Under the pieces are notes generated by a model. The model did no database searches and was not told the DNA's origin. It saw only the letters and a program-made list of their open reading frames with translations. DNA of 64,000 nt from Cladophialophora immunda (taxonomy: Eukaryota; Ascomycota; Eurotiomycetes; Chaetothyriales; Herpotrichiellaceae), in the NCBI RefSeq assembly GCF_000835495.1, contig NW_015622541.1, positions 7,688,001-7,752,000 of the forward strand, read 5' to 3'. Numbering within the stretch: the stretch's first letter is position 1; the number at the start of each line of letters is the position of its first letter. The translations under genes and the position numbers were made by a program. Of this stretch, positions 34,465 through 63,236 are shown one piece after another.

Positions 34465-36930
34465 ATGGGTGCAGCCGTCTCAGCGGTCAGAGGCGCGGCC
34501 GTGGTTGGCGCAGAAGTCGCCGCGGCAGGTGCTGAGGCGGCAGAGGCTGTCGTCATGACTGGAGGGGCGGCAGCAGGAGACATGGGCTTGGTAGGTCAGA
34601 CGGCAAGCAGGGTCGCCTCGTCTTCCGGGTCGACAGATTTCTTTTCGGCACTAGGAAGCACGGCCTCGGATTCTTCTGCCTTTCGAGGCGTAACTGCGTC
34701 CGAGGCATCTGGACTGGAAGGCCCGCAGCAGTTGGATCCTATATTCTACGGACCGAGGAGACCACACTCAGTACCTCCATCATTCTCCAAAGGGAGGCCA
34801 TGGGACGGGCCAGGATTCAGAAACCATCCTGCTTCGGAGGGGGGAGCATACCGAAACTGGGACTTCACAGAGCAAGGAGTACCCCAGGGGGCATCCCCAA
34901 AGGCCGCAGAGTTGTCATCATCCTCGACCTCGACCGAGTCAGGATTCCTCCGCGACCTCAAAGGAAAAGAGACCGTCCATGATTGGTACAGAGGATTGTC
35001 GCCTGTCTCTGACACGGGAGCAACAGCAGGCTCAGTGTCATCGGGGGAAATCTCGGGCTCGGTGTCAAGAGGGTGGTCGACCGAAGCAGTCGATGGATCC
35101 CAGCCGGAACTGTTCCCAGAGGCTTTCTCGGAACCTCGTACGCCCTCCCAGATATCGTCGACCGGAGCAGAGGCAGGTTCAAGACCGAGACCGGTGTCAG
35201 ACTCGGAGGAGTGGCTCGCATCATCGGAAGACTCGACGGGCACGGTCGTCCACCATACTCCTCCCAATAACCCCAACTCCATGGAAGCAATCGATGGATC
35301 GGCGGAGTGGCTCTCAGGGTCGGAGCCGTCGTCGGTGGCGGAGGGGTCAACCGAAGCGGTAGCGGGATCCATGGCGCAATCCGAGGGCGAGGTGATAGAA
35401 GGAGAGGTCATCTACGACGGGCATTCACTCCCAGCGGGGTCGGGAGAGTCCACAGGAACCGTCGTTCACCATCCGCCGCCAGGAGGAGGAGCAGCTGCAG
35501 GAGCGGCGGCGGAAGGGGGGGCACCAGCCAAGGTCAACAGATGGCAAGACACGTGGAGCGTCAACGAGATCCTGCGCCTGCCGGAGGAAACGAGATTCCA
35601 CATCCTCCGCGGCGCGTCGGAGCCGGCGCCCCTTTTCTACAAGCCGGGTGCGGGAGTCCAGGCGAATTTGCACACGTTCTCCAGCTTGGGCAAGGCAGTC
35701 CGAGCCTACATCAAAAAGGAGGCCGCCTTCACGGGCGAGGAGGTCAGCATGATTTTCGGCCGGAGGCCAGGGAAGATGACGGGCGCAGAGTATTTGGCGC
35801 GGGTGGGCAAGCCGGTGCGCCCCAGCACGGCCAAAGAGCTCAAGGCCATGTCCGGCGAGGATTTTGCAAAGTTGACCGGGCCGGAACTGCAAAAGTTGAC
35901 TCCATTTCGGTCGAGAAGCAATGCCCTCACTACCGCCTATGGAGTCACCGCCTATGCCGGGATTCTGGCCGGCTACACCTATGGGAACACCATGGGCGAA
36001 CTCCACAAGAACAAGATGAAGGAGAAGTACAAGGACGTGCACAAGCGCGAGCTTGCCTCACCTGTGATGGACCGTCCGAGTATGCCGCAGACGACCCTCG
36101 TCGTCACGCAAGGTCTGACCTGGATGTACACTGACCCACTCCCGGCACTGGGCATATACACCGCCAACGACACCACGTCCTCGGTGTTTGACGGCGATTA
36201 CATCACGGTGCCCATGTCGACCGGCGCCGAGTATGCACTCACCTTCCCTCCCGAGGTGCAGCGGATTCACCTCACCAACGCCGGCCCTCGGCCACTCTGT
36301 GTGGCAGGAGTCAACATCACGACGTTGGACAGCTACTGGGTGAGCTTGAGCGGCAACCTGGGGGAGCATTTCGACGTCGACCACTATGAGACGGGCCAGC
36401 AGGTCATGAATGGATCGACGTCGTGCACCTGGATTGACCACAACCCGGACGGCGTCGGGATTGCCGGGTTGACTTTCGAGCTGGTCCCCAATGCTGAGGT
36501 GCCTCAGGGGGTCAACGGCAGCGTGCCCTTCATCTGGCCTTCAAACGACACCCACCCGGCAGATATGGCAAGCAGCACCGAGCGCTTTGACTTCAGCGAG
36601 CACCTGGTCAAAAGCCAATTGACCAAGTCGAGCGCGAAGCGACTGTGCGAAAACGAGTACAGCGAGGGCCCCCACTTTGTGAGTCTGAGCGAGAAGTTGT
36701 ACTGCGACATGGAGACTCGCGTCGTCTATCCTACCTGCGGAGCCGAGGCTGGGGGCGGCGTGTGCTTTGACGTCGACCAGGATAAACTGGTCGAGGCGGA
36801 GGAGGGTAGCAAGGAGGAATCCGAGGTTGAGTCCGAGGGCGTGCGTGGATCGTTTACCAAGCGGCGGGTCGAGAAGGCGAGGAGGACCAAGGTGCTCAAG
36901 AGCTTCAAGCACGTTCATGTGTGGGAGTGA
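34465..36930 (+). CDS. uncharacterised fungal protein with predicted N-myristoylation site
   Basis: 821 residues from the ATG at 34465; an in-frame ATG at 34315 would add 50 residues that look like a translated leader. The chosen start gives MGAAVS, fitting the MGxxx(S/T) N-myristoylation pattern, followed by an Ala/Gly/Val-rich helix. Residues of about 60-380 are low-complexity, Ser/Gly/Glu-rich, with imperfect repeats such as STGTVVHH(T/P)PP (twice) and S(T/M)EA(V/I)DGS (three times). A more ordered middle part (VNEILRLPEETRFHILRG) follows, then a short Gly/Ala/Tyr-rich hydrophobic segment (TTAYGVTAYAGILAGYTYG). The conserved C-terminal region has Cys at RPLCVAGVNIT and STSCTWIDHNPDG, reminiscent of an uncharacterised Pezizomycotina domain. 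The tail is acidic then basic. No function can be assigned. Confidence 0.72.
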   Translation: MGAAVSAVRGAAVVGAEVAAAGAEAAEAVVMTGGAAAGDMGLVGQTASRVASSSGSTDFFSALGSTASDSSAFRGVTASEASGLEGPQQLDPIFYGPRRPHSVPPSFSKGRPWDGPGFRNHPASEGGAYRNWDFTEQGVPQGASPKAAELSSSSTSTESGFLRDLKGKETVHDWYRGLSPVSDTGATAGSVSSGEISGSVSRGWSTEAVDGSQPELFPEAFSEPRTPSQISSTGAEAGSRPRPVSDSEEWLASSEDSTGTVVHHTPPNNPNSMEAIDGSAEWLSGSEPSSVAEGSTEAVAGSMAQSEGEVIEGEVIYDGHSLPAGSGESTGTVVHHPPPGGGAAAGAAAEGGAPAKVNRWQDTWSVNEILRLPEETRFHILRGASEPAPLFYKPGAGVQANLHTFSSLGKAVRAYIKKEAAFTGEEVSMIFGRRPGKMTGAEYLARVGKPVRPSTAKELKAMSGEDFAKLTGPELQKLTPFRSRSNALTTAYGVTAYAGILAGYTYGNTMGELHKNKMKEKYKDVHKRELASPVMDRPSMPQTTLVVTQGLTWMYTDPLPALGIYTANDTTSSVFDGDYITVPMSTGAEYALTFPPEVQRIHLTNAGPRPLCVAGVNITTLDSYWVSLSGNLGEHFDVDHYETGQQVMNGSTSCTWIDHNPDGVGIAGLTFELVPNAEVPQGVNGSVPFIWPSNDTHPADMASSTERFDFSEHLVKSQLTKSSAKRLCENEYSEGPHFVSLSEKLYCDMETRVVYPTCGAEAGGGVCFDVDQDKLVEAEEGSKEESEVESEGVRGSFTKRRVEKARRTKVLKSFKHVHVWE

Positions 36931-38680: not shown

Positions 38681-39994
38681 ATGTCGACCACCCCCAATGG
38701 CTACACCGACGAGAAGGATCCTGAGATTGAGGTCCTTCCAGCGCCGGCAACTTCCACGCCCCCAGTGAAACGGACCTCTCTCGCAACCCGTCTGCTCAGA
38801 CTCGTTGCTACCGTCTTAGGCGCTCTTCTGGTCTTCAAGGCGCTTTGCAGCGTGGTTGGGTCTCAATCCGGGGGCCTTTCGAGACCGTGCCACGGTATGA
38901 ATCACAAGATCCCCGGTTATATCCCACTACTGTTCGACGACGATGGCCACCATCAGCACCCGTTCCCACCCATCGACAAGTGGAAACCTTTCAACGGCAC
39001 CACGCATTTCGAATTCGACCCCGCCCAAGCCAGTGGCCTTTCCGTCCGAGGGCCAAAGGTGTTTGGGAAGGTCGTCTTTGAGACCTCCAAGTTGTCCAAC
39101 AAGGTCGTGATCGATCTGGACATCAAGACCAACAAGAAGGACAAGGACGGCGAGGTCACGATCGGGGAAGACAATGGCCACCTCACCATCAACACTCCGT
39201 CGACCGGCAAGCTCAAGACCCACACCGCCGCCACAATCCAGATCCCATCCAACATCATTGGAGAATTCGCACTTCCCAGGTTCGAAGTCGATGTTCCCCG
39301 CCACATGGTCGACTTCAGTCAGCTGCCCGAGTCCCTTGAAATCGGCACCTTCACGGTCCGGGTGGGCAGGGGATTCGTCAAGCCTGGCCCCGTGCACACC
39401 AACACGACCCAAATCTCGATTGGCTATGGCGCTCTCCGCGGTGCCCTGACCCACGCCCGCGACGAGACCAACGTCGACATAGGCCGGGGCAACGTGACAC
39501 TCAACATCCCCTCCATCTCTACGGGCGACCAGGGCTCGACCCACATTCACCTCGGCCACGGCCACCTGAACGGCAGCCTGGCGATCTACAACTCGACCAA
39601 CATCGACATCGGCAGCGGCGGCATCTACGTCAATGTCGCCTTCAAGTCGGCCGCCCCACGAGCCACGCTCTCGACGCGCATCGCCTCAGGCAGTTCGCGC
39701 GTCTTTGTCGACTCCATCGCCGCGGAGCGTCTCTTCGAGTCGTCCCACACGTCCGTCGCGGGCGACCAGCTGATCACCTACCCCGCGAATTTCCAAGGCA
39801 CGGTCGACGCGCGAGGCATCGTTGGGGACATCAAGCTCGAGGGGAAGGACCTGGCTGTCGAGAAAGTCATCGGCGGCATGGTGGGCCGACAGGGAGATAG
39901 CGACCGGAACTCGATCAGCGTCAAGACCGTCCGGGGCAAGCTGGACATTCTTGTCGGGGACGAGCCGACGGCGCAGCAGAGCCACAGCTGCTAG
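38681..39994 (+). CDS. uncharacterised single-pass membrane protein with beta-rich ectodomain
   Basis: 437 residues, single exon, ATG at 38681 in good context (TCAAAATGTCG). A short cytosolic N-terminus (about 30 residues) with a basic cap precedes one membrane helix (LLRLVATVLGALLVFKAL). The rest would be extracellular or luminal, with N-glycosylation sequons such as NGT, NTT, NVT and NST. The ectodomain alternates short beta-like segments (SLAIYNSTNIDIGSGGIYVNV), which recalls repetitive beta-solenoid or DUF4097-like adhesin folds seen in other uncharacterised fungal proteins. No catalytic motif was found. The gene is convergent with the DUF726 gene. Confidence 0.75.
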   Translation: MSTTPNGYTDEKDPEIEVLPAPATSTPPVKRTSLATRLLRLVATVLGALLVFKALCSVVGSQSGGLSRPCHGMNHKIPGYIPLLFDDDGHHQHPFPPIDKWKPFNGTTHFEFDPAQASGLSVRGPKVFGKVVFETSKLSNKVVIDLDIKTNKKDKDGEVTIGEDNGHLTINTPSTGKLKTHTAATIQIPSNIIGEFALPRFEVDVPRHMVDFSQLPESLEIGTFTVRVGRGFVKPGPVHTNTTQISIGYGALRGALTHARDETNVDIGRGNVTLNIPSISTGDQGSTHIHLGHGHLNGSLAIYNSTNIDIGSGGIYVNVAFKSAAPRATLSTRIASGSSRVFVDSIAAERLFESSHTSVAGDQLITYPANFQGTVDARGIVGDIKLEGKDLAVEKVIGGMVGRQGDSDRNSISVKTVRGKLDILVGDEPTAQQSHSC

Positions 39995-40871: not shown

Positions 40872-43800
40872 TCAACTTTTCCCGAACCCAACTGTCCGTC
40901 CCAGGCCGGAGATCATGCTGCCGCCCGTCCTCAGCGCGCCACCCGCGGCGTTCTTGCCAGTTTCACCGGCCCTGCTCGCTGCATCTGTGGCTGACGAGGT
41001 GACGCCCTTCGCAGCACCTGCGCCAGGGACAGAAGGTGTGGCTACAGGGCTTGAAGTCTCTTTAACTCCCCTATTCTTCTTCTCTGTGTCCTTCGTGGCG
41101 TTCTCACCCTGTTTGTATCCCGCCGCGCCGGTGGCCGCATTCCCAGCCCTCTTGGCTGCGGCCGCTGCGTCCTGGGAGAGACTTGCCAGCCTCTCGCCGA
41201 TGGCCGCGGGAGTCGGCGCTGCGGGAACTTGGACCTGTTGACTCGAGCTCCTCCGGGGTCCCAGTTTCGGCGGCGGCGATCTCACGCCACCACTGCTGAC
41301 CTGCCGTATGAGACTCGGTGTTGGGACTGACGTGGACGGCGTGGGGACTCCTGAAAGTGGAGGGCCGAGTTTTGTCGGAGACTTGACGCCCCCAGATGGA
41401 GCGTGATCGAGCTTGGTCGGTGGGGATTTCATGCCAGAGGGAGTCCTGTCCAGCTTTGGCGGGGGCGACTTGATACCAGAGGGGATCCTGTCGAGTTTTG
41501 GCGCCGGCGGCGACTTGACTCCTGATGGGATCCGGGCGAGCTTGGGCGGTGGCGACTTGACACCTGCCGGTGCCTTCTCCAGTTTCGGTGCTTCTTGCGC
41601 TGCTTTGGTCGCGGCGCCTGTCTTTGACTCGGACGATCTCTTCTCAAGTTTTGGTGGCGGTGGTCTCTTCCCGCTCTTCCCTGCGCGTCCAAATCCCATG
41701 CTAGGCATGCTAGGCAGATAGGCCGCTGCTCTAGAGGTATAGCTCTGCCCGGTTTTGACTGCGCTCTGAGCAGTATCTGCTGCACTTTTACCGGGGTCCT
41801 GGGATAGACCCGGTGCTGCCTTGCCCGCTTCACCAACTTTGTCGGCGGTGGTATCCAAACCTTTTCGTACAGTTTCAGTCGCGTTCTGCACGGTTGTCCC
41901 CGCTGCTTCAGCTGCCTCACCCGCTTTATCTTTGAGTGGAGCCGGTGTGCGATCTTTTGCTTGATGAATAATTGGGGTCTGGCGGGTGACACGCCTGGTG
42001 GACTTGACTGCGGGATTGTCCTTGGGGTTCAACGCGTTCTCGACCGTCGGTGTGACCACGTCGGACACTGTGCTCGCTGTGCCCTTGGCAGCGGCGGTGG
42101 TAGTCTCTGCCGCCTTATTTGCAGATTCCGTCGCCTTCTCTGTCGCTGCTTTTGGTGGTGCCTGGGATTTCCCTTTGATGCCGCTTGAGAGGGAAGGCAT
42201 GCTCGGCAGAGAAGAGAGATATTGCGAGGCTTGTTGGACATAGCTTTGTGTTTGGCTTGTTGCTCCCTCTGCACTCTTGGGTGCCTGGCCTGTGAGTTTG
42301 CTGGCGTCTGTGGCGTCCGGTTTCTGAACTGCGTTGGGATTGGAACGGTTGATGTGTGGCATACTCGGCAGGTGTTTGTAAATGTAGGTTGCATAGCTCT
42401 CTGTTGAAGCTTGGGCGTCCTTGACTGTTTGACTGGCGACATTGCCAGCCTGGGTAGGGTCCTGTCCGGCCTTCTGTAGATTGCTCGCCAACTTTTGCGC
42501 ATCTTGCGCACTTGGGACACTCGGCACGTAGAAATACTCGATCGCCCTACTCACCAGGCTCTTCTTCGTCTGCTCCTGGATCTTCTTTTCCAACTCTTCG
42601 GCCTCTTCTTCGCCTTCAGCGGCTTCGTCTACCTTGCCGCCATGGGACTCCCTCCTCATCAGCCATCTTCTCTGCGCAGCAAGAGACTGTTTCTCCTCTT
42701 CCTTTTCCATCTCTACTAGCTCTTGCTGTTCTCGTTTGACGGCGTCCATGTCGATATCCTCAAAGCCAATCTTCTTGAGAATGGCGCCGATCAGGTAGCG
42801 GTAGCGCTGGTGGCTGCTGACATCCTCCGAGACATCGAAGTTTTCGACCGACCTCAGGCCTTCAACCTTTTGCAGTCCAGCCACTCCATACTGAATGGCT
42901 GACGTACGGTACATGAAGCCAAGGATGTAGTCGTTGACCGAGAAGACATTGACGAGTCTGCCCGCGATAACACTGCGGAGGACTCTCCAGTCGCTAGTAT
43001 CGCTGGGTGTTGGTGAGCCAATCATGACGGCATTCTCAATGATTCCAAACTCCTTTCTCTTCGCCAGACTCATGAGACAGGTGTATATGACGCGAGCTCC
43101 AAGCGAATATCCGATGAGGGTGACTGGACGCTCGCCTTGTGCGCGATTGACCAGGGCATCCGCCAGGACCTCACCCGCCTTGTCGGCACGACTTTTCGCA
43201 ACGCTGAAGGGGTTATCAATGACCCTTGCGACCTTCATGAGGGCCATCGGCCACATCGCCGCGGCAAGTTCTGCGAAGATGGTCCGTGATATGATTTCTT
43301 TCTGTGCATATCCCCAGGCCGCCGATTGGACCATGCCGTTCATTGCATTGCCCAAGTTCAGCAATGCTTCCAGTTCGTACTTCAACGCAAAAACCTCGGC
43401 GCCTGTACCCAAGGACCGCCATGGTTTCACCACCTCCTCTTTCTCGGTCAACCAACCTGAGATGCCAAGGGTGACGCGGAGTTTGTGGTCATGTTCACTT
43501 GCGTCTTGTGCACCTTGAGCTTCATCTTCGCTGGTCTTCTTGTCACTGCTGCCATGAACAGGCAGGAACTGAAAGTCCTCGACTTCACGTGCATACGAGT
43601 CCATCATCTGGCCCGTCATTCGTCCGCCATATGCACCAAACAGTCCACCGACGAGGACAGCACTTCCTGCTACGGAGCCCAGGTATGCAGCTGCGGATGT
43701 AGCACCAAGCCCGAGTCCACCCATGACAGAGCCGACACCTGCTGCGACGAGAGGAGCTGCCATACCGCCCGTGACACCGAGAATTGCAGCACCAGCCGCA

Positions 43801-44627
43801 GTTGCGTAGCGAACTCTCCATTTTCGAGTCTCCTCATTCTCCTTGATCTTCTTCATCTTCTCCTCGTCGGCTGTCAGCTCTTTGGCCGCTTCGAGTAGGC
43901 CTTTGGCCGTCGCGTACTCGTCTTGCTCGAAGGCCTTCAGGGGCAGTTTCAGTGATGATGTCAAGTTGAGCAGCAGAATGCGAGAATACGCATTGTAGTG
44001 CTCCAAGGACAGGAGCAGCAAGAGCAAAGAATGGAGGACCAGCGTTCGCCTGTCCATGGGCAGCTTCGTCAATGGAGTTTTCGTGGGAGGGAACAGGTCT
44101 TTGAATTTCAGGTTGACCACTCTGGACCCAGCCTCCATGACTCTGGCAGTGGTGACTGGTGCCTGAGGCCTTGATAATGTGGCATTGGCGCCCTTCCGAA
44201 CTTGTTCTTGAGCGGTGCGTTCACTGTTGACGACTTGGCCAACCCGCAGGATGACCTGCTCGCGCCACTCGTCAAAGGCCTTGAGAGAATTCTTCTTGAG
44301 GTTCTTCATCTTCAGCGTTGCCAGATCCTTGTCGATCTCAGCCTTCATTTTCCGTTCGCGGTCGTACGCAGAGACGTCGACGTTTGCTGGATCCACTGCC
44401 ATCATCTTCTCCTCCTCGGTCATACCTTCTCGGAGGAGCGTTTTGTCCAGGCCTGCTGTTGAACTGAAGTTATCAAGAATCACTTTGCGCATTGACTCGG
44501 TGATGTTTGCAATGAGCAGTGTTAGATCTGCTCGTTGGCCTGTATTTAGGACGCTCGTAAGGTCTGTCTCATCTTCACTACTCGTCTGGGCCTTGGTGGC
44601 TGGCTCGGCAACAGTTTGTTCGGACAT
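40872..44627 (-). CDS. DUF726 alpha/beta-hydrolase family protein (Mil1/TMCO4-like) with long repeat tail
   Basis: 1251 residues, single exon. The ATG at 44627 (MSEQTVAEP) is the first real start; three upstream codons are open but begin with GTG. The DUF726 region spans roughly residues 110-620. It has a hydrophobic stretch (LVLHSLLLLLLSLEHY), a Gly/Ala-rich double membrane or glycine-zipper segment at about 275-340, and the hydrolase nucleophile elbow GYSLG with Ser508. IGSPTPSDTSDWRVLRS and VNDYILGFMYR follow. Yeast Mil1 (YFL034W) binds the AP-1 adaptor and human TMCO4 is the relative; lipase activity is predicted but unproven. The extra C-terminal 600 residues, absent from short family members, are Ala/Lys/Thr-rich with three YLPSMP-type motifs and a block of SPPPKL repeats. 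Confidence 0.88.
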   Translation of the reverse strand: MSEQTVAEPATKAQTSSEDETDLTSVLNTGQRADLTLLIANITESMRKVILDNFSSTAGLDKTLLREGMTEEEKMMAVDPANVDVSAYDRERKMKAEIDKDLATLKMKNLKKNSLKAFDEWREQVILRVGQVVNSERTAQEQVRKGANATLSRPQAPVTTARVMEAGSRVVNLKFKDLFPPTKTPLTKLPMDRRTLVLHSLLLLLLSLEHYNAYSRILLLNLTSSLKLPLKAFEQDEYATAKGLLEAAKELTADEEKMKKIKENEETRKWRVRYATAAGAAILGVTGGMAAPLVAAGVGSVMGGLGLGATSAAAYLGSVAGSAVLVGGLFGAYGGRMTGQMMDSYAREVEDFQFLPVHGSSDKKTSEDEAQGAQDASEHDHKLRVTLGISGWLTEKEEVVKPWRSLGTGAEVFALKYELEALLNLGNAMNGMVQSAAWGYAQKEIISRTIFAELAAAMWPMALMKVARVIDNPFSVAKSRADKAGEVLADALVNRAQGERPVTLIGYSLGARVIYTCLMSLAKRKEFGIIENAVMIGSPTPSDTSDWRVLRSVIAGRLVNVFSVNDYILGFMYRTSAIQYGVAGLQKVEGLRSVENFDVSEDVSSHQRYRYLIGAILKKIGFEDIDMDAVKREQQELVEMEKEEEKQSLAAQRRWLMRRESHGGKVDEAAEGEEEAEELEKKIQEQTKKSLVSRAIEYFYVPSVPSAQDAQKLASNLQKAGQDPTQAGNVASQTVKDAQASTESYATYIYKHLPSMPHINRSNPNAVQKPDATDASKLTGQAPKSAEGATSQTQSYVQQASQYLSSLPSMPSLSSGIKGKSQAPPKAATEKATESANKAAETTTAAAKGTASTVSDVVTPTVENALNPKDNPAVKSTRRVTRQTPIIHQAKDRTPAPLKDKAGEAAEAAGTTVQNATETVRKGLDTTADKVGEAGKAAPGLSQDPGKSAADTAQSAVKTGQSYTSRAAAYLPSMPSMGFGRAGKSGKRPPPPKLEKRSSESKTGAATKAAQEAPKLEKAPAGVKSPPPKLARIPSGVKSPPAPKLDRIPSGIKSPPPKLDRTPSGMKSPPTKLDHAPSGGVKSPTKLGPPLSGVPTPSTSVPTPSLIRQVSSGGVRSPPPKLGPRRSSSQQVQVPAAPTPAAIGERLASLSQDAAAAAKRAGNAATGAAGYKQGENATKDTEKKNRGVKETSSPVATPSVPGAGAAKGVTSSATDAASRAGETGKNAAGGALRTGGSMISGLGRTVGFGKS
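41340..41660 (-). repeat. tandem SPPPKL(x)RxPSG(x)K repeats in the DUF726 protein
   Basis: Six imperfect copies of about 14 residues each, with core SPP(P/A)KL followed by a PSG(V/I/M)K link. Each copy offers a minimal proline-directed kinase site (KSPP) and a PPxKL pattern that could bind SH3 domains. The DNA copies differ by point changes, so the array is not a recent expansion. Confidence 0.85.
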
Positions 44628-45357
44628 GGTGTCCACTGATGCTCAAATCACTTTGCTCCACACGGTGCAAACACAAGATTGTATTCTACCGCCTAGGTAA
44701 AGTCCAATCTATCCACGCTCGACGGATAGGAACAGGAGGTTGAGCGGCAGAGATCAGCGAAACCGCATGAAGATCTGACGAGCGGAAAGCCGTTGGACTG
44801 TTATGAAGCACAATAGACAATAAGACTTGGGAGGAGTTGAAAGTGTGGCGGTGCAGGTTGTCCTGATGTCGATGATCAAAGCTGGCGACGGCTGAAGGGG
44901 GGAAATGACGTATGGGAAACTGGTCGGGCATATCACGATGCTTGTTCTTCCATCTCTTTGCCCCCTGTTCCCTGCCACACACAAACACGCACGCAGATGA
45001 ACGATCGATCGCTGGGATTGGCGCTGCTCGCGGATCGTGGGAGAAAGAGGACCTGGGAATCGCAGCCAAAGAAAGACGTTCAAACTAAACACGACGTGTT
45101 CTTACTTTTTGTGTAACATTGCGTTCCGTCGTTATCGAATCTTGTCCTTGCGTGGGCTCGTTTTCTTAGGGGGTTTCCGCCCCCAGAAAGTCTAGAATCG
45201 TACAAAGTGACCTATAGTATGCGATTGCCGGCCGATCCACATCACTCCGGTCGCCTTGCTTTTTATAAAAATGCAGCGTGAATGCCTGCTGGGCAGTGGC
45301 AGCCTAAAGAATGGTCCCAAAGCTGTTGACTTGGTTAGCAATACACTCCAAAACATT
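44628..45357. other. promoter of the DUF726 gene and 3' region of AHA1
   Basis: About 0.7 kb; both flanking genes are on the minus strand. No gene seen. Confidence 0.5.
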
Positions 45358-46459
45358 TCAACCAGTGTGCAAGACGTACCCAAATGTCTGCTTGATGCTG
45401 CGAACGTAGTAGCCTTCCCAATTTCTCTGCACCACTTCCTCTTGTCCAACCGGTACCCCGGTCCACGTAACGCGCATGTTAGTCACTCGGTCGACATCGT
45501 TCTGGTCGAAGAAGATCTCCTGGGTGCTCATGTGTCCTTCGGGCCACTGCGCTAATCTCCATTTCTGAATAATCTTCTTTGGGGGCTGGAGTTCGACAAA
45601 CTCCCCAGTTACATTGCCATCGAAAATAGAGAACTTCCCGCCGACTTTGGCGCCCTCGAATAGTCGAGGAGGGGCGCGTGTGAACGCTGCAAGGCGCTGG
45701 GGATCGGTAAAGGTCTGGTACATTTCTTCTGCCGTTGTGCGAAACTCATCCGTCGCAACGACTGTAGTCGTGTTGATGGACGATTTTCCGCTTGTGGAGG
45801 TTGTGGTAGGGGCAGGAGACAAAGGTTTGCGTTCTTTTTCAGGATGCCACGTGGGAGTTGCGAACCCACTCGACGGGTTGGAGCCAGGCGCGTGTTGAAG
45901 GTCTTTGCCATGCTCCTCGATCAAGGCGGGCCCGAATTTAGAAAACACTTGTCGAAGCTGAGGGACCAACTTCGATCGGACAAGATCTTTAACGGGCTGT
46001 TTCTCTTTCTTCTCGGAATAGATGTCAATCTCAAACTGCCAAAGTTGTCAGTCATAGTCCGAGCAAGTTTCGCACGCTTCGTCAATGTGGTACATACCAC
46101 GTAGTCATCAGGCTCCGTGTCATATGCGCATTCCGGGACTCTGATACTCCCGCCAACGTCGGTGCCATCTTGGGTCTTGCCTGTTATAACGAATGAGCCA
46201 CCTCTTTCACCATCCTCTTTAGGTGTAGGCTTGTACCTTCATATTCTAGTTGTAAAGCAACATCAAAGATTGTGATGACTTTGCCCTTTCGCTGGCTCAC
46301 CTCCACGTCGCCGTCCATCGAGGTCAGTTTTGTGATCTTTGCCGACACTCCATCCTCTTCCGCCGAGACCTTCTTGACTTCTGTGTCTAAATACTCCCTG
46401 GCCCAGGGACCAGCGTCTTTGTTGACCCAATGCCAGTTGTTCGGGTTGTGGAGGACCAT
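45358..46459 (-). CDS. AHA1: activator of Hsp90 ATPase
   Basis: Cytosolic co-chaperone that binds the Hsp90 middle domain and stimulates its ATPase, 334 residues. Exons in coding order: 46459-46237, 46201-46098, 46035-45358. The N-terminal domain has NPNNWHWVNKDAGPWAREYL, the classic Aha1 start, and continues over the second intron as DDYV|FEIDIYSEKK. A Ser/Thr/Pro linker of about 50 residues leads to the C-terminal AHSA1 domain (TAEEMYQTFTDPQRLAAFTR to WEGYYVRSIKQTFGYV). The first intron would be only 35 bases (GTACAA...AAAGAG), very short even for fungi. Phases fit exactly with it; otherwise the gene carries a frameshift there. Confidence 0.93.
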
Positions 46460-46973: not shown

Positions 46974-47189
46974 GAGCAATCACAATCGATCTTCATTTCG
47001 CATACTCACGATAATGAGAATTGGCGGGTCTACCTAATACCGAGTAGTTACCACGACCACGCTATGATGAAACCCCTTCGTTTCTGAGGGCTGTAAACCC
47101 CAACAGCCATTTGCTGCCCTCGTAACCCAAGAGCGCCCAGTGGCCTTCACTGAAATAATCAATACTCCGGTACAGTGTGGCAGTCGGTA

Positions 47190-47450
47190 TGTCCCGTGTC
47201 ACCATGACAAGCTTTTTCAAAGATCTCAGCTTTGCACTCGCATTCGCAGTCGACAATGTCCCACCATGATAAACTCTTTGCAACACCCCAGCTTTGCACT
47301 TGCATTTTCGATCACCAATGTCCCCTGTCACCATGATAAACTCTTTGAAGCACCTCAGCTTTGCACTCGCATTTCCGGTCACCAATGTCCTCTGTCACCA
47401 TAATGAGCTCCTTCAGAGTCCTCAGCTGCGCACTCGCACTCTCCTAGTCG
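47190..47450. repeat. tandem repeat of about 66 bp, four copies
   Basis: Four diverged copies beginning TGTCC at 47190, 47257, 47319 and 47386; lengths about 67, 62, 67 and 65 bases. Each contains CACCATGA/AA near its start, CTCAGCTTTGCACTCGCATT or a variant in the middle, and ends with (G/A)TCACCAA. The lengths are not multiples of three, and no reading frame crossing the array resembles a protein family, so it looks noncoding. It ends 27 bases short of the EAF3 stop codon, in that gene's 3' UTR. Confidence 0.85.
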
Positions 47451-47476: not shown

Positions 47477-50400
47477 CTATCGGGCATTCTCGATGTATTC
47501 CGCACTTGGTTTCTCATATTTCGCACAGAAGTATTTCGTACTGTTCCTCGACAGCCAGATGCTGAATTTGCTGAGTTCGGTCTTCAAGCGAGCAACGGCT
47601 TCCAAGTCCATGTTCGTCTGGGCAATCATTTCCGGCAGGTTGACGATCATGCGTGTGAGATGTTCGGCACCGTAGCAATCGCCGGGACCTTTGCCCTCCC
47701 ATTCCTTGTAACGACCGGACTCCCAGAGCTTCCTAACCTGTCCGCAGCGTCGTGATCAGCATGTAGACGGGAAAAGAGACCATAACGCTAAAGAATGACT
47801 TACCTCTGCTAGTTGACTTCGCTCAAAGCGATACAGTAAGATCTTACCAACTGCTTTCTCAAAGTACATCTTTAGTCCAGCACAGAACTCCTCCAGAATG
47901 TCTGCTTCGGGCGAACACAGGCGGCGATTCATCTTCTCTTCGTTGAAATATTCGTCAATGATGAAGTTCGCTGGAGCTTGACTTGGCAAGGGGACGAGAA
48001 GAAGGGATTTCGTGACATTCTCCCAGTCGTCAACGAGGAGATTTTTCAAATGGTCGGGGATGGTGATGCGTATGGATGGACGGGTGTAGAACGCGTCTTC
48101 CTGTGAAGGCATGTTCAAGTAAGCAGGTGTTCCTCGTTCAAGGTCAAAATGATGGAAAAGGGACTCGGCAATCTTTGCGAGCTGTAGCATTGGAAAAAGA
48201 CCACGGAGCGAGGGGGAGCCAGATCCATTTCCATAACCGGCATCCTGGGTATTTCCTAGGGAGTCAGATCCATTTCCATATCCGGGGTCCTGGGTGTTTC
48301 CTAGAGGGTTACTTTGAACGCGATCAGCTGCTCCAGATTCGACCACTTCTGCAGCCAGAGCAAGAACATCCAGTCCTGTGATGGCTCGGGTAGCAGGGAC
48401 CCTGGCACGCAAGGCAACGTCGAGATTGTCGCCACTCAAGTTCGCAAACTCCTGTTGTCTATCGTCGACACTGCCTCGTCGCCCGTAGCTCTCCTCGTCC
48501 ATAGAGATAGAAAAGTCGCATTCACGGCCAGCCTGTTTGCAGGGATGGCAGACCGGCTTCACTCCATCGCATTTCACGCCGAATTTGACACACTTCTTGC
48601 ACCTCTCCTCAGATTTATCGGTGGTGACCTTGCCAAAGGACCGACTTGCTCGGGCCGCGTCTTCAAAGGCACGGTCTGTGGCCAAGCTGGCGAGGACGTT
48701 AAGAGCATAGTGGTCGTCGTTGGGTCTTCCCTTGACCTTGGTGACGAACGCGTTTATAATCTTCGCTTCGTTCTCTCGCTCCCACTGGTCCCAAAAGGGT
48801 GCGTTGTCTGGCACTTCCTTGAGAACCCAGTGGGGGCGGTTCTCAAGTACGCTGTATGGCATTTTGACCAGGAGTTCTTCACGGACCCAGACGAGGCAAT
48901 GGTCAGGGATGCACTTGAGATGTTCCTTGGTCCACCCGAGGGGGAATCTGTCGCCATCGCGGTTTATCTTCTCGATGAGGCGATAAGGGAACTTGAGGGC
49001 ATCGAGAGGCGTGTTTGATCCAGGAGGATCAACCTCAAAAGGTGCTCCAGGAGCGATTGTCGCGGGCGCAGCCCCGTGATCCTCGTTATCGCTATCGATA
49101 TCGGAGGGCAGCTCTTCGAAATGCGGCGGCAACTGGTGTTTTGGTCCGCGGTGTTGTTGCATTGTGTACGACTTCCCTCTCTTTCGCGCGTCTGGTTTGG
49201 TGGCAGTACTGCTGCGCAGCGTTTTTGAACTGGTGGAAGATTGCGAGGACGGAGTTGGTGATGAAGCGTGGGTTTGGTTGATTGTCCTCGAAAAGGAGGT
49301 GGCCATGGACTGAATCTGGGACTTGACCTTGGCGGTGGAAACCGCCGCTGCGGTCCTAACGCTCCTCCTGAGAGAAGTGACAACATTTACTTCACTTTCT
49401 TCGTCCTTGATGCCTGCGAATTTGTCTTCCGGCTTTGCATCAGAGAGCAGTTCATCACTTTGCACGCCCTCACCGTCAGGATTCGCGGTGATGTGGGAGC
49501 GATTAGAACCAGAAGCTTGCTGGGCCTTTGGTTGTGCTTTTGTTGCATCAGATTTCTTTCCAACATTCGCTTTCCCTTTACCACTGACAACTTTCGTATC
49601 TTTTGTGCGAGATGTGACAGTCTCAGAGTTTGACAATGTCTTTTTCGACAGCCCAGCTGGCACGTTATGAGGGCTAGGGGTTGCAGCATCGGCCTTCTTT
49701 GTGGCGGCAGAACTGCTCAACTTGGACGCGGTCTTCTTCGTCGTCTTTTTGGCAGAGGGAGCGGCCACTGAAAGTTGTTTCGAATTTGCTTCTGCAAGAG
49801 CAGTCGTGGCTTTGACCGCAGCTTTGCGGGGCACATAGACAAATTGTCGCAGATCTATCTCGTCATTCCGTCGTTGTTCCACGCTCTGGCTGGGCTTAGA
49901 GTCCTCTTTGCCGTCCTCGGTTGTTAGCTTGTCCTCTTTGTCATCCAAGGTTGTCGGCTGGTCGCCGTTGTCATCCACGGTTGTTGGCTTGTCCTCTTTG
50001 CCGTCCGGGGTCTTTGGCTTATCCTCTTTATCGTCCGCGGTCTTTGGCTTGTCCTCATTGTCATCCACGGTTGTCGGCTGGTCCATGTTGTTGTCCACAT
50101 CCGAAAGATGGGCGATGATACTTGTGATCGATTCAGCATCCAAGGGGTTTTCGATATCCAAGTTGGGTTTGGGAAGCTTCTTCACCTTTGAAGCATACTT
50201 GCGGGCCTTCTCGCTCGCGGGCAGATCGGCAATCCAGGCTATCATATCAAAAGGGGGGATATCATCATGACGGGAATCACGATCACGAACACGGGTGCGC
50301 TTGTGGGACGGGGAATCACCACCAACCTTTTCCAGATCGTTATCTCTTGCGCGTTTGGATCCCCTACCACCGGCAGCAGGGACAGAAGATGTGCGCTCCT

Positions 50401-52314: not shown

Positions 52315-53106
52315 ATGCCACCCCACACACCCTCCGAGTCAGAAATCCTCACATCGTACCTCCTCCACCCGTCACCGCTCCCGACAATCCTGCCGTACAA
52401 ATCCTTCCTGGCACTTGTCCCTCCCAGCGCGTCGTCCTCTGCACGACAGCACCCGACCGAGCTGAAGCGACTGTACCGAGACCTGCAGTTTCAGAGGGAC
52501 ATTGTCATTGACGACGTGAGACGACGGATCGAAGACGAGCGTCGTCGCAGCGTCGAACTCACAGCGCGGCTGGGGAGGCAGATTCGCCGGGAGGAGGAGG
52601 GATTGAGGAGGGGCAGGAAGCGGAAAAGGAAGGAGGGTAGCGCTCGCGGCGACGACGGTGACGACGGCGACGACGATGAGAAGTCAGATAGTGACGTCGA
52701 TAAGGAGGAACAGGAGACACAATTCGACACGGCGCTCCACGACGGACGAGCGCTCGGCAACACGCTGCCCACCGCGACCGCAAAGCACAACCATACAACC
52801 ACCACACTCCTCGCTGCAATGGCCACCGCCGGTGAGGACCTCACCGCCGAGATCGCAGACCTGGAGGCCCAGATCGACGCGCTGCGCACGCAGGCCAAGG
52901 ACACCATTGGGAACCTGAGTGACTTGCGATACGGACGGTTTGCCATGTCGAGCGGGCGGATGAGCGGAGACCGGAAGAGCAGCGGCACAACCACCACGCA
53001 CACCGACACTGCCAAAACCAGGGACGAGCTGCTGGACGAGTTCAAAGACGATATGGTAGCTGCAATCAAGGGGTTGAAAGATAACCTGGTGAAGGCAATG
53101 TCGTAA
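52315..53106 (+). CDS. Cnl2/Nkp2-family kinetochore protein
   Basis: Component of the inner kinetochore (CCAN/Ctf19-Sim4 complex), nuclear, 263 residues, single exon. The N-terminus reads SESEILTSYLLHPSPLPTIL followed by FLALVP and a RLYRDLQFQRDIVIDDVRR helix, the pattern of the Cnl2/NKP2 family (S. pombe Cnl2, S. cerevisiae Nkp2). Coiled-coil segments at about residues 55-105 and 165-205 flank a very basic stretch (RGRKRKRKEG) and an acidic Asp run. The protein is longer than yeast Nkp2 (153 residues) because of this low-complexity middle. Start at the first ATG, 52315. Confidence 0.82.
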   Translation: MPPHTPSESEILTSYLLHPSPLPTILPYKSFLALVPPSASSSARQHPTELKRLYRDLQFQRDIVIDDVRRRIEDERRRSVELTARLGRQIRREEEGLRRGRKRKRKEGSARGDDGDDGDDDEKSDSDVDKEEQETQFDTALHDGRALGNTLPTATAKHNHTTTTLLAAMATAGEDLTAEIADLEAQIDALRTQAKDTIGNLSDLRYGRFAMSSGRMSGDRKSSGTTTTHTDTAKTRDELLDEFKDDMVAAIKGLKDNLVKAMS

Positions 53107-55868: not shown

Positions 55869-58191
55869 TCACGCTTCATTCACCTTCTCTGCTCGGTGGT
55901 AAAATGGTGGCAACGGTTCGAGTTTCTGCCTCAAAACCCACACGCGGAAATGCCAGACAGCATTCTTCATCTGGTAACTCATATGCTTACGAGTGCTGAC
56001 ACTGAACACTTGATCCAGTTCTTCGAGGGTCAGGGCCTAGAAAGAGTGAGTCAGGACCGTATACGAAGCAGAGATATGTTCGATCAACGCGTACCTTGGT
56101 TTCGGGAACGAACAGAAGAATCAAGACCCATAGGATGATACACCATGCCCCGTACCATCCAAATGCACCCTGAGGCTTGAAAGCCGTCAAGAGATGAGGC
56201 CAAGAGAAGCTGAGAATGAAGTTGAAACACCATGTGGTGGCCGTCGCGAAACTCATACCGACGTCCCGAACATGCACGGGGAATGCTTCTGCCGAGTACG
56301 TAAATGGCACAGGGCCTTCGCCGGGCGAGTAAAAGACCTGCGGGACGACTGTCAGAAGATTTATGGATCCAGAAAGGACTTTACTTACCTCGAATAAGTA
56401 CATGCCCGTCGTAACCATCCCAACTTTGGTCTTGGTGTCATGGAACCAGAAACTGAAGCCAGTCCACAACAGGAAGATGGCCAAGAAAGGGAACGTGAAG
56501 AGCAGGAGATTGCGACGCCCCCAGCGATCGATGGTGAACACGGCAGGCAAAGCAAAAACCCAATTCAGGATGCCTGTGCCCATTGAAGCCAACAAAGCCG
56601 ACGTTATTGAGTACCCGGAACTGACAAATATGGTCGTCGAGTAGTAAGCAATGACGTTAACGCCACAGAATTGCTAGAAAACGCGTCAGTATCAACGTAT
56701 GCAACATGGATTCGACGATATCTCAGGTGGGTAGAGCAAGAGGGTTGGGTATCATACCTGCCCGAACATTACTATCCATGACGCCAAGGTGGCTCGTCGA
56801 TTGCGGGGAACAGTGAAGAGCTCAATGAACTGTGTGACCAAATTCTTGCCTTTGTGGGCCTTGCGTTCAAGTTCCACCCCGATGTAGGTGTAGTAGGTAT
56901 CTCTTGCGGCTTGGAGGTCTGTGAACCTCAGGCGTTGGAAGGATCGGAATGCCTTCTCTGGATGATTATGCTGGATGTACCATCTATGGAACATTCGTTA
57001 GCAATTCTCTGTTGAAGGACACACAAGGGGCTCCGGGGCGTCTTGGGAGGTTTCTTCCCACGTACCTGGGACTTTCAGGGCAGAAGTAGACTTGCGCACA
57101 GACGATAAGCGGAAGGACAACAGTGCTGCCGAGCATGAGTCTCCAGCCAAGATCTGGAGCGAGTCCACCGAATGCCACGCCCATAATGTTTCCAAGCATA
57201 ATGCCTAGAAAGCCGTTAGAGGACGAGACCACACGGATCACCCCAAGAGACTTACCGAATGCTGTCCACATTTGCCACATCATAACCAGCGCGCCACGGA
57301 TTGGGGCTGGGGTGCACTCGGCAGAGTAGACTGGTACCGTAGAAGATTTGGGACCAATTCCAAGGCCTTAGGGGAGTATTAGCATAGCTTCACATGGGAG
57401 CGCGACTGCGAAAGCAAGAGAATCGACTTACCGAGAACGAATCGTGCCAAAAACAGATTGACCCAGGAATTAGCAACCCCTTCCCACACCGAGGCAACTG
57501 CGGCAATGAAACAAGAGATGAAGATCGTTCCTCGACGAGCAAAGACCTTGTTGCACGGCTCTGTAAGCCAGCAACCGAGAACAGCACAGCACACTGGACT
57601 TTTCATCAGCATTCAGCCGGAGAAATCTCCCACATTCTGCGAGAGTTCTGAGCAAGTCGGGTGCTTACAATATGGTGCACCGACGACTAGTCCAGTCAAG
57701 TTGTCAACCATGTCTTGGCTGAACCGCTTGGTGGTGACGTTGAGTTGCTTGAGATAGAGTGCCTGTGCACCGTTGTTCACCGTTTCGTCCATACCCTGCA
57801 CAGCAGCCGCCAGCGAGCACATGATAACCAACCAGTAGAGAGTGAATGGTTGAGACCAGCGGTGGGTGTGCTCTCGCTCGAGGACTTCACGGTCTTCGGG
57901 CGATAGCTCGACAATACCATCAACGGCATTGGGTGATTGAGCTACCAACGCACCCTTGCGGAATGCCTCGATATACTCCATGAGATTGTTATCTCTGCAG
58001 AAGACCTCGACTTCTTCCAAGAGTTTCTCCTTAGGGATATCGGAAAGCGGATTCTCAAATGCGGCGCTCAATTTGGTCATGTCAACGTCCACGAAGGACT
58101 TCTTGCGGGGAGGAGCATTTTCAACATTAGTGGCAGTACGCTCACTGTCACCAGAGCGCCTGTCGTAGAGATTTTTTTCTTTTTCAGCCAT
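55869..58191 (-). CDS. MFS sugar/polyol transporter B (8 exons)
   Basis: Sugar porter family membrane protein, 618 residues. Exons in coding order: 58191-57669, 57593-57432, 57366-57256, 57204-57066, 56983-56758, 56673-56389, 56337-56095, 56036-55869; all phases agree. Marks are QGMDETVNNGAQ in the first membrane region, CPESPRW across an intron, IDRWGRR after TM8, [17 protein letters not shown] and ETKALTLEELD at the end. The loop 2-3 signature reads VFARRG, with Ala in place of the usual Gly of GRR. The N-terminal extension ([18 protein letters not shown]) and whole architecture match transporter A at 7223-9403, so the two are paralogues. B has eight exons against five in A. The substrate is not predictable; start at the ATG at 58191 (MAEKEKNLY). 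Confidence 0.91.
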
Positions 58192-59442: not shown

Positions 59443-62400
59443 TCATTCCGCGGCCTGTAGGGATTCATCCCAGCCACCGACACTTTCTAAGAACATCTTG
59501 ACCTGTCCTTTCTTTCCTTGCAGGGCACTCCCCAGGGCTTCGAGCCATTGTTCCTCAATCATTGCCACTTGCTGCTTCAACTCTGCGGTAGCTGTTCTCT
59601 CTTGCTCGTCTCGAACTTTCTTGGGGTCCTCTCCTGATACTGGGCCATCCAGTTCGGCGCGAGCTCGCCGGGCTTCAGCAGCTCGACCTGTTGCTGCTAT
59701 TAACCCAACTTTGACTTCATGGAGCAGACAGTGGAGGTTGCTTTGGGATTCTATGAACTGATACGTCGATTTCTCCGCGTGATCAAGCAATGTGAAAAGG
59801 TATTGTTGCGGAAACTGCCGGTATTCGGGGTTCTCGGCATATTCAGCGTCGGGAACCGCAATGGCGCCGAACCGATCCAAGTCATCGGGAATCTTATGGA
59901 GCAGATCCAGCAATCCAGGCGCGATGTCCCAAAACGCAGACGACTGCAGCTGGACTTCGTCTCGAACATGGTCTGCAACGAGGTCGACAAAGCGTTGATG
60001 ACGGACCAGTGCTTCTTCATAAAATGCCTTGTGTCGCTCGGCACTGTCGCGATTGAAGAAATCCTCTGTGTCTCGGATCTTGTCGAAATTACTCACCTGG
60101 TGATAAGGTAGAAGCACAATGGCTTTGTATTTGTCATTCCGCGCGGTGAGGAGGTCGAATATTTCCTTATGGACAGTTTCCCGGGTTTCAAACAACCACT
60201 TCAACTGGGTGAGATACTCTAAGATTTCGGGCATAGCATCTCCCTCTTGTTGTGGTCGATCGAGGTCCGAAGCCTGCATGTCTGCCTCCAGCTGCTCGGC
60301 CAATGCAGTCATGTGGGCACTGAGTTGCCTTGCACGCTCATGGAGCATTTCGTGCATCGGGTTGATCACCACGTCCTGCAACGTATCGAACTCCGCTTGA
60401 AGGCAGGTTTTCTCAGACATGTTCTCCTCCATCTTGAGGGCCTGCTCCGCTTCTGCAGCTTCCGCATACGTGATACTGCCCTCGTTGATCTGTGCCGAAA
60501 TATTGGTCCGAAAGTTCTTCTGCCCCTCAGCAATCTTGCGTTTGTGCTCGGTCCTCAAAGCCTCAACACTCAAGTCATGGCGTGATTTCCTATTCTGTAA
60601 TTCACTCAAGTCACTGAGTGTTCGGACGAGCTTCCGATACGTGGCCAACTTCGGATGGCTGTTGTTGACGGCAGGGTGGTGTCGAGGGTATGGTGGAGGT
60701 AGAGTAATGAACCGTGAGATATCAAGCCCAACTGGAGACAATGGATCTGGTGAGGTGGTCTGTTGCATCTGTTGAGGCTCGAGGTCCTCGTAGATGCCAA
60801 ATGTCTCTGGGTTGGCTTTTTCAGCAGCATAGCCTTCTGTCGAGCTGTATACTTCGTTGATATTGGTTGGTGTCGCGGACTCGGACAGCACTTCTTGCAT
60901 CGACAGGGCAGAGAGACCCATATATTTGGACTCCCTCTTCGACCTTTTCATCTTGTTCGATACGCTGTCAGTTTCCGAGCCAGTTTGTGACTGCCACCAT
61001 CGGCTAGCAGTTCGACCGCGGGAACTGAGTCCATCGTTACTCATACTGGCAATCGGTGAAAGCTCTGGGCGGTACTCCTTTGACCACATCTCGCTAAGTT
61101 GAGTCGGATCGATCCGCATCCCGTGCATAGGTGATCGCATTCTGCCGGGTGCCGTAGCTCGTACCTCACCTTGGCCAGTCGTCCTGAGATCACTGAAGAG
61201 CCGCTGTTTGCCTTCCTCTGGATTGAAAGTTCCATCAGCAAACGGGGTTGGATAATGCTGCCTCCGGATCTTCGACTCCTCGACCACAAATTCCATAAAA
61301 AGCTGCAATCTCTCTAGCTCGGTGTTTGCTTGGCTCTCCCTTACGAGAAATTGTTGATGCCGCCGCGAAGCTTCTTCCATGAACGGATCATATTCAACTT
61401 GGGCGAGTTCAGACACCGAAGACGCTGTTGAAGGAAGAACACTGTGCGCAGAAGTGGGGTTCTTCTGACTCAGTGGTGGTGTAGGCAGCGACTTTGGCGG
61501 GACCAGCGGTGTTCGGCTACTCCTCAATGACAAGCCGGGAGGAAACGGTGAATCTAGCGGTTGATAATCGAGATCGTTACTTCGAAGTCGGTTCCTGGTC
61601 CTGCTGCTGGTCCGTAGACCTCTTCGAGCAGTTTCGGGGCTGGCTCGTTCTGGTGCCAATGAGCTCAAGGTAGGTGATTGTTCGGGACTAATACCGCCCG
61701 GGCTCAAGCCGTCGAGCCAGGGGTCAGTATCAATGGTTAAGGCGCTGAGATCGGCCAGTTGAGCCTCGTGAAGACTACGGCGTTGCTTCCGACGTTCCAG
61801 CAGACCTTTTGCAGAGGAGACTCGGAGAGCAGCGCTTCTGCTCAAACCAGTAGTCGTCGAGCCCGGTCGATCGAGGTTTGTGGTCTCAATATGTAACGGC
61901 ATCGGGGTTCTGGAGCTAGATCGATGAGTAGACTCATCCCTCCAATTTGCAGGTGTAGGAGGCATGGGGCTGAGAAGAGGCGCATGCAGTGGTACGCGAT
62001 GACTTGATCGATTGCTGGGTCCAGCCGCCGGTGGTTGAGTAAGAGCCCGACTTCCACCTGCACTCTGTGACCTTGAGGCCGATGGAGGTGGACCTGGAGG
62101 CGGACCAGGTAGAGGCATTCCTGGAATCCAACTTCTCTGTTTGGAAGATGATCTCGACGACGATTCTTCTTGACTCGGAACCGATGGCGGCTGAGAAGAA
62201 TATCCATCCGCGGACGCAGCTCTTCTTGACGCTGGCGGAGCGGGATGTTGTCCCAGGTTTGCATCCATTGGTGGATAAATAGGCACGTTCTGCTGCGCGG
62301 CCACCGTATTTATCGACAGAGATGTTCCTAGAGGATGTCTCGCCACACCCAAGGCAGAACTTGGCCGGGATCCATGTTGCTGCGACGATATACTCAAGCG

Positions 62401-63236
62401 GCCCTGGTGGTGGTCGAAACCACCGGATCGCCCTGAAGGGCCGAAATATTTTGGTCCATTTGTGTCCGTGATGGTCTGGCCGCTGTCACCTAGAGAATGA
62501 GATCCCTGGTTCAGTGGTGACAGCACTCCCACAGTACTATTTGGAGTGTTTAACTGGGATTGATTTCCAGGAGCTGTGAACGTCGAGTCCGCAGGCGATA
62601 TAGTCGACCCAGCACTGGTGGCCTCACGAACAGTAACACCTGTCGCTGCAGCGGCAGCAGCTGAATACGGTGGCGGTGGATTGGAAAGCCCTTCTGCACA
62701 CAGAGTCAGACAAGTCTCTTTGCTCTCAGAATACCGATATACCTTCTGCTTGAGGCCCCGGATTCCGACAATCTGATCCAAATGACGTTCTTCGACTCCC
62801 TCCCACCCACTCCCTAGGGTCATAAGGCACGTTGTAGTTTCCCGACACTCTTGCAGCCATCGGTATAGCACTTTGAGGACTTGGGACAGGCGAATTGATG
62901 TACGTCGGCGAGAAGGGACCGTGCAACAAAGGAGCGGAGACGGGACCTGGAGACGACAGACCACGCGCAGAGACAATGTTGATGTTCAATGGCGGTGGAA
63001 GGGGGACATGGCCGAGGCGCACTGAAGAGGCCGTAGACTGGCCATCCCTCGGTGGTGGTGGTGGAGGAGGGAGAGGAATAATGACGGTGGGAGTTCTTGG
63101 GGAGTGTTGATATTGAACCTGGGCATGTTCAGCCGCAGTCAATGGTCGGCTTTCGAAACGCTGTTAGCCTGTCCTGCCTAGGAGCTCTAGATTGTGACAA
63201 GGAACCACATTCTTCGACGTAAACATACAAGGACAT
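59443..63236 (-). CDS. large Pro/Ser-rich protein with conserved helical C-terminal region, function unknown
   Basis: 1221 residues in a three-exon model: 63236-63229 (only ATGTCCTT), 63149-62743, 62693-59443. The tiny first exon is inferred because the main frame begins without an ATG; splicing gives MSFRPLTAAEHAQVQYQ. Residues up to about 560 are Pro/Ser/Arg-rich and disordered, with a poly-Pro run near residue 25 and PPPPY (a PPxY motif) near 145. A patterned segment (EYDPFMEEASRRHQQFLVRE, then LQLFMEFVVEESKIRRQHYP) comes next. The last 420 residues are helical and coiled-coil-like: FRTNISAQINEGSITYAEAA, LTARNDKYKAIVLLPYHQV, FFNRDSAERHKAFYEEALVR. This C-terminal part resembles uncharacterised Pezizomycotina proteins. 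A cytoskeletal or membrane scaffold is plausible but not shown. Confidence 0.8.

Follow-up and report, generated by a model that had tools for sequence, protein, structure and literature searches.

An open 742-codon segment between the chromodomain and MRG halves of EAF3 in Cladophialophora immunda: a possible coding intron at a junction that bears inserts in other fungal genera

Introduction

Eaf3 serves NuA4 and Rpd3S, and reads a histone mark laid down during transcription. The EAF3 gene of the ascomycete Cladophialophora immunda contains, exactly where its chromodomain and MRG halves should meet, a long open segment with GT and AG at its ends, which raises the question of whether this segment is an ordinary exon, an ordinary intron or, depending on the transcript, either of the two. 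The present work addresses the coding nature of the segment, its occurrence in relatives and in other genera, the quality of its splice sites, and the explanations that can be given for it.

Organization of the EAF3 locus

The window, i.e., the whole stretch of 64,000 nucleotides that was analysed, lies within contig C1 of an assembly of 42.2 Mb in 39 contigs. On its minus strand, EAF3 consists of four ordinary exons, two ordinary introns and the open segment (Table 1), and a genome search detected this locus as the sole MRG-domain site. The product has 1,064 residues with the insert and 322 without it. Two normal halves meeting at DNDLEK/EDAF had been claimed from a first inspection and agree with the gene structure; removing the insert restores the exact junction found without insert in other fungi. 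The MRG domain reaches 100.6 bits against a PF05712 cut-off of 22.8, and Eaf3 chains in the PDB match the product in a sequence search (best E 3.2e-20). The Tudor-knot/MSL3 chromodomain (PF11717 and PF22732) is annotated on P0002, a separate C. immunda record which equals the window product outside the insert; a fragment devoid of exon 1 scores only 18 bits for the chromodomain, below the cut-off of 28.

A tandem array of 3.8 copies of ~62-67-bp units (47189-47438) occurs just 3' of the EAF3 stop codon. Neighbouring genes with Pfam matches encode DUF726 (40872-44636, minus strand), AHSA1 (45358-45969, minus), a Cnl2/NKP2 family protein (52315-53106, plus) and a sugar transporter (55987-56595, minus), and three long open reading frames, at 59443-62976 (minus, 1,177 aa), 34315-36930 (plus, 871 aa) and 38681-39994 (plus, 437 aa), have no Pfam match at E 0.01.

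Table 1. Features of the EAF3 locus, in window coordinates and in the order of transcription
Feature	Position	Strand	Size	Remarks
Exon 1	51036-50864	-		CDS from ATG at 51036; first part of chromodomain; reading frame and splice sites, protein as P0002
Intron 1	50863-50565	-	299 nt	GTGAGT...CAG; branch motif GCTAAT 15 nt before 3' end
Exon 2	50564-50327	-		Remaining chromodomain and basic linker; last residues DNDLEK
Open insert (putative coding intron/exitron)	50326-48101	-	742 codons	GTTGGT...TTCACAG; open frame, codon usage, homologues in 3 species
Insert residues 1-12	50291-50326	-	12 residues	VGGDSPSHKRTR; 10/12 positions invariant in 4 species (alignment)
In-frame coding repeat	49901-50084	-	30-nt unit, 6.1 copies	Also 90-nt unit, 2.0 copies
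Conserved insert core	48743-49060	-	~106 residues	P0002 residues 560-665; 70-86% identical between species
Zn2Cys6-like motif	48503-48601	-		CX2CX6CX6CX2CX6C; below Pfam cut-off; spacing read by eye
Branch-like GCTTAC	48119-48124	-		A 19 nt before last G of insert; one mismatch to RCTRAY
Exon 3	48100-47804	-		First part of MRG domain, starts EDAF; PF05712 E 9.1e-29
Last intron	47803-47738	-	66 nt	GTAAGT...CAG; branch motif GCTGAT 18 nt before 3' end
Exon 4	47737-47477	-		End of MRG domain and stop TAG

Coding nature of the insert

The in-frame insert claimed in the preliminary description was confirmed: its 2,226 nt are divisible by three, start with GTTGGT and end with CTTCACAG. The sense frame is free of stops, each of the five other frames containing between 12 and 46, so that the usual marks of an exitron, a 3n length, the lack of an in-frame stop and GT...AG ends, are all found. 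An assembly error, which had been named as a possible outcome, is ruled against by P0002, which has the same 742 codons; the two sequences differ by 9 substitutions and no indel, all of them within the insert (9/742 versus 0/322; Fisher P 0.064), which points to a C. immunda strain other than that of P0002, or to a very close relative, as the source of the window.

Codon usage in the sense frame resembles that of the flanking EAF3 exons and of 47 long ORFs taken from 264 kb of the genome. When scored against 60-codon windows of these ORFs (0.146 +/- 0.10), the insert reaches 0.186 in frame, none of the other five frames scoring above 0.009; the sense frame is the best in 9 of its 12 sixty-codon windows, another frame in the remaining 3. 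Neutral drift of the insert, simulated with substitutions only in 20 runs each, would introduce a mean of 11.6 stops at 67% amino acid identity and of 15.4 stops at 55%. Owing to this codon usage, to the presence of all 742 codons in P0002 and to homologous inserts in three more species, the insert reads as real coding sequence.

Organization of the insert

Besides the features listed in Table 1, the insert shows a 45-nt in-frame duplication (48214-48304). Pfam, NCBIfam and PDB-sequence searches with the inserts of the four species returned nothing above a curated cut-off or with a convincing E-value. The Zn2Cys6-like motif falls short of Zn_clus membership (PF00172, 17.1 bits versus a cut-off of 21, E 0.006), and PF00172 matches only two of the four inserts at all; as judged by eye, the six-Cys spacing is complete in C. 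immunda and Fonsecaea nubica and broken in the models of Cladophialophora psammophila and Fonsecaea erecta. Structure prediction gives pLDDT values of 46.7 for the core and 49.4 for the Cys motif, too low to be interpreted as a fold.

Some other origins were considered and rejected. An intein is discounted, as no Hint/intein family occurs among the Pfam or NCBIfam matches of the four inserts. A paralogue or source gene in the same genome is discounted too, the search having returned, besides the insert, a single weak match (30% over residues 556-666, E 9.5e-4) which contains one stop and spans the Zn2Cys6-like region; P0004 of C. psammophila used as a query matched the EAF3 locus only. As for short introns within the insert, the only candidates are a GTGTGT at 48593, which resembles a strong donor, and a 149-nt stretch (48449-48301), the latter frame-breaking.

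Relatives carrying the same insert

Searches with the insert protein found four protein clusters, all of them EAF3 of Cladophialophora and Fonsecaea, and no clear relative outside EAF3 among the 7,992 candidates scored, a scope within which distant relatives may be missed. Homologous inserts occur in F. nubica (P0003), C. psammophila (P0004) and F. erecta (P0005), and the frame is open in all four species including C. immunda, as read from protein models. The inserts are 48-57% identical at aligned positions between these species, and the flanking sequences are 82-95% identical on the chromodomain side and 90-95% on the MRG side (three pairs having MRG).

Depending on the species, the models treat the segment differently. 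Those of C. immunda (P0002) and C. psammophila (P0004) run straight into MRG, with similar sequence up to the junction. In F. nubica, the insert-bearing model ends after ESGTAPCI, before MRG, and two adjacent models share the gene, AYO20_06344 comprising the chromodomain and the insert, and AYO20_06345 the MRG domain only, starting MTLQ/EDAF. The F. erecta model splices from inside the Cys motif to EDAF and thereby removes the 3' part of the insert. The stops or splicing-out in relatives that had been named as evidence against a coding insert are thus seen in part, at the level of models. According to the genome reports, GeneMark-ES was used for an ab initio annotation of these two Fonsecaea genomes (PMC4974309; PMC5640708), so that the gene structures of F. 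nubica and F. erecta are predictions.

The EAF3 model of F. pedrosoi has 322 residues and is identical to the two halves of F. nubica (137/137 and 185/185 residues), which suggests that either the insert was lost exactly in F. pedrosoi or it was spliced out by the annotators. Since the halves coincide, a full Eaf3 in these siblings would most simply result from splicing. The F. pedrosoi short form stands for a cluster of 5 sequences, the MRG-only model for 10, and P0002 for a single one; no short C. immunda EAF3 record occurs among the matches listed (best 120 of 451), the C. immunda model found being the long one.

Inserts at the same junction in other genera

A search with the 322-residue form gave 451 matches, of which the best 120 were taken, and the resulting comparison set comprised 124 proteins (P0002-P0125). 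Within this set, 22 of the 124 proteins, from 14 genera, carry an insert at the chromodomain/MRG junction; 15 were recognized by pairwise alignment and 7 by inspection (P0003, P0005, P0083, P0103, P0107, P0122 and P0124). The genera are Cladophialophora, Fonsecaea, Xylographa, Lambiella, Loxospora, Pleopsidium, Alectoria, Usnochroma, Xanthomendoza, Seirophora, Candelina, Chaenotheca, Sclerophora and Vezdaea. For 8 species the placement was checked, in the Eurotiomycetes, Lecanoromycetes, Candelariomycetes, Coniocybomycetes and the Vezdaeales (class uncertain); the other insert-carrying species are placed according to their usual classification. Twelve genera of lichens and their relatives, from three further classes and the Vezdaeales, are accordingly newly found to have predicted EAF3 models with junction inserts. 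A lineage-specific sequence, as proposed in the preliminary description, is supported by the insert itself, confined to EAF3 of Cladophialophora and Fonsecaea, but the same site is used in these 12 other genera and is not lineage-specific.

The borders of the inserts recur across genera. The first residue is Val in 11 of the 13 genera with a readable left border (the exceptions are Chaenotheca and Vezdaea, and Alectoria is unreadable), Seirophora being represented by S. lacunosa, whereas the insert of S. villosa starts with Ala. The second residue is Gly, Arg, Cys or Ser in 11/11 genera, as a G at position +5 of an intron would allow; the last residue is Gln in 13/14, Xanthomendoza excepted and Fonsecaea being represented by F. 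nubica, and the exon residue preceding the insert is K, E or D. Binomial values derived from insert composition amount to 1e-13 for Val, 2e-7 for the second residue and 4e-19 for Gln, and, when only deep lineages are counted, to 3e-9 for Val (7/8) and 8e-12 for Gln (8/9); as the genera are related and not independent, all these values are to be taken as indications. Val is encoded by GTN and Gln by CAG or CAA, so that Val/Gln borders are what a translated phase-0 GT...CAG intron is expected to leave in protein models. That this junction is occupied in 12 further genera by inserts with mostly such borders speaks for an old intron site rather than for a single fusion event.

Between distant genera, most insert interiors resist alignment. 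However, a profile built from seven Baeomycetales inserts finds those of Loxospora (1.7e-15), Pleopsidium (5.4e-9) and Candelina, which belongs to another class (6.8e-8), the best of 900 shuffles reaching 0.0059, and these inserts share in the alignment a motif resembling QDPKLKLMIAG; among the matches listed, 6 of the 9 other lichen-group inserts do not rise above the shuffles. By this criterion, some of the lichen inserts are coding sequence as well. Between black-yeast and lichen inserts, no homology was detected with HHalign, and in HMMER searches both ways the shuffles rank first among the matches listed; open introns at one site could therefore have separate origins.

General failure of splicing in the models does not explain this pattern, since only one of the 11 long models in an EAF3 alignment has a further internal insertion. 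That insertion, of 22 residues in the MRG half of P0081 (Pleopsidium flavum), is perhaps another read-through intron. Within the Teloschistaceae (family checked for Usnochroma and following the usual classification for the other models), EAF3 models of 323, 349, 373, 533 and 534 residues stand side by side. Two Seirophora inserts, measured by eye at ~26 (P0122) and ~56 residues (P0124), share their last part and end in KQ/EETF; their models seem to part-splice one and the same segment.

Splice sites at the insert borders

The ends of the insert had been called splice-like, and GT and AG are indeed present, but GTTGGT shows no enrichment among donors and the branch motif is imperfect: both other EAF3 introns have RCTRAY branch motifs, from which GCTTAC, located at a normal distance from the acceptor CACAG, deviates by one mismatch. 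Genome-wide pattern counts, restricted to short introns with an RCTAAC branch, give 90 intron-like matches for GTTGGT versus 213 backward controls, close to the non-donor GTTGCT (94 versus 233), whereas GTAAGT gives 444 versus 196. A dispersed AT-rich repeat occurs among the GTAAGT...RCTAAC...YAG matches (e.g., on contig C1 at 447747-447822, 1380640-1380715 and 4225376-4225451) and inflates the GTAAGT count. In a 264-kb sample, GTTGGT was observed 4 times versus 4.7 expected. AAG/GTTGGT is a poor donor in the C. immunda genome, and a length of 2.2 kb would be most unusual in a fungal intron. Weak splice sites fit a facultative intron and an absence of splicing equally.

Interpretation of the insert

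Taken together, the segment is on balance considered probably to be a facultatively retained coding intron (exitron) of the PTC7 type, located at an intron site older than the classes compared. The combination of splice-site-like border codons kept across classes with open, conserved interiors favours facultative retention, as in PTC7: the borders are hard to reconcile with a segment that is never spliced, and the interiors with one that is always spliced. Each of the two readings initially offered, an exonised intron with two isoforms and a lineage-specific fused module, holds in part.

Constitutive fusion, in which the Cladophialophora segment is an ordinary exon, Eaf3 always has ~950-1,064 residues and the GT and AG of the borders are relics or due to chance, is the main rival of the coding-intron reading, and is regarded as rather unlikely. 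It owes its standing chiefly to the weak donor and to the long C. immunda model, which, like that of C. psammophila, reads through into MRG and was probably RNA-guided: P0002 is inferred to derive from strain CBS 110551, whose annotation, according to its report, used RNA-seq via Trinity, Cufflinks, PASA and EVidenceModeler (PMC5595782). Constitutive fusion is at odds, however, with the short F. pedrosoi model and its identity to the F. nubica halves, with the F. nubica module model that stops before MRG, and with Val/Gln borders recurring in most of the 14 genera around interiors mostly beyond alignment.

An always-spliced intron or nested gene, whose ORF, were it expressed, would use a start of its own, is decidedly improbable. 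The short model of F. pedrosoi, with its cluster of 5 sequences, and the in-frame ATGs at insert codons 28 (the first), 81, 341 and later would suit it, but residues 1-12, which precede the first ATG, rank with the most strongly conserved positions of the insert and stand in frame with the chromodomain exon in 4/4 species. Lastly, an assembly or annotation artefact, suggested by the discordant models of the relatives (read-through, split, partly spliced or short) and by the ab initio origin of the two Fonsecaea annotations, is scarcely credible in view of the identical 742 codons in the window assembly and an independent C. immunda record, and of a coding signal lying within the DNA itself.

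If the segment is a facultatively retained coding intron, its splicing out would yield the ordinary 322-residue Eaf3 with the chromodomain joined to MRG, and its retention would continue the frame for 742 codons into a 1,064-residue protein. Between its reader and docking domains, the long form would carry a lineage-specific module made of a basic start, repeats, the ~106-residue core and the Zn2Cys6-like motif; the predicted module-bearing product of F. nubica would end before MRG. Both transcripts would presumably occur within one cell, in a ratio which the weak splice sites would allow to vary. The long form may target H3K36-methylated chromatin differently or compete differently there, and the module could direct the complex to other targets; a form that lacks MRG could instead act as a competitor of normal Eaf3.

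A broader scenario is put forward tentatively, as possible rather than probable. The linker intron of EAF3 may have been coding and optionally retained since before the Eurotiomycetes, Lecanoromycetes, Candelariomycetes and Coniocybomycetes parted, its ends being kept by splicing and its inside by translation, while each lineage rebuilt the interior, e.g., into the 742-codon black-yeast module or the LMIAG-type motif of several lichens, so that one gene would set the ratio of two H3K36me readers. Under the coding-intron reading, EAF3 may be the source of two chromatin proteins, and the presence of such an intron in a core chromatin reader, with its site shared by several classes, would link splicing directly to chromatin state. 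It would also illustrate how new domains are tried within a conserved gene while the old protein is retained, and the split, truncated and read-through EAF3 models of many fungal genomes may each hold part of the truth.

Comparison with known systems

Among the titles and abstract openings listed in a literature search, mostly of freely accessible papers, there is no description of a long or exitronic Eaf3, and no work combining exitrons with Ascomycota. An exitron is an open intron inside a coding sequence; the term was found mainly in plant and human papers. The EAF3 segment resembles plant and human exitrons in being an open intron-like stretch within coding sequence and is, to our knowledge, far longer. 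With respect to Eaf3/MRG15, it is likewise flanked by chromodomain-type and MRG domains, but a 742-residue module lies between them in C. immunda instead of the direct junction of Eaf3/MRG15.

Two fungal systems come closest. SKI7/HBS1, as presented in PMC3597508, is an ancient fungal gene, found also in Pezizomycotina, that gives two proteins through splicing; it differs by the use of alternative 3' splice sites, in contrast to the retention of a coding intron proposed for EAF3. The same text describes PTC7 of the Saccharomycetaceae as containing a coding intron whose spliced and unspliced mRNAs both yield protein, and as the only S. cerevisiae gene known to give functional proteins from both (PMC3597508). 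EAF3 shares with PTC7, as described there, a 3n intron without in-frame stop, a frame kept across species and a single gene. Both products of PTC7 are known by experiment, whereas the EAF3 forms are known from sequence and gene models; the EAF3 segment further differs by its 742 codons, by the conserved core and Zn2Cys6-like motif that these encode, and by its location in a reader of histone marks.
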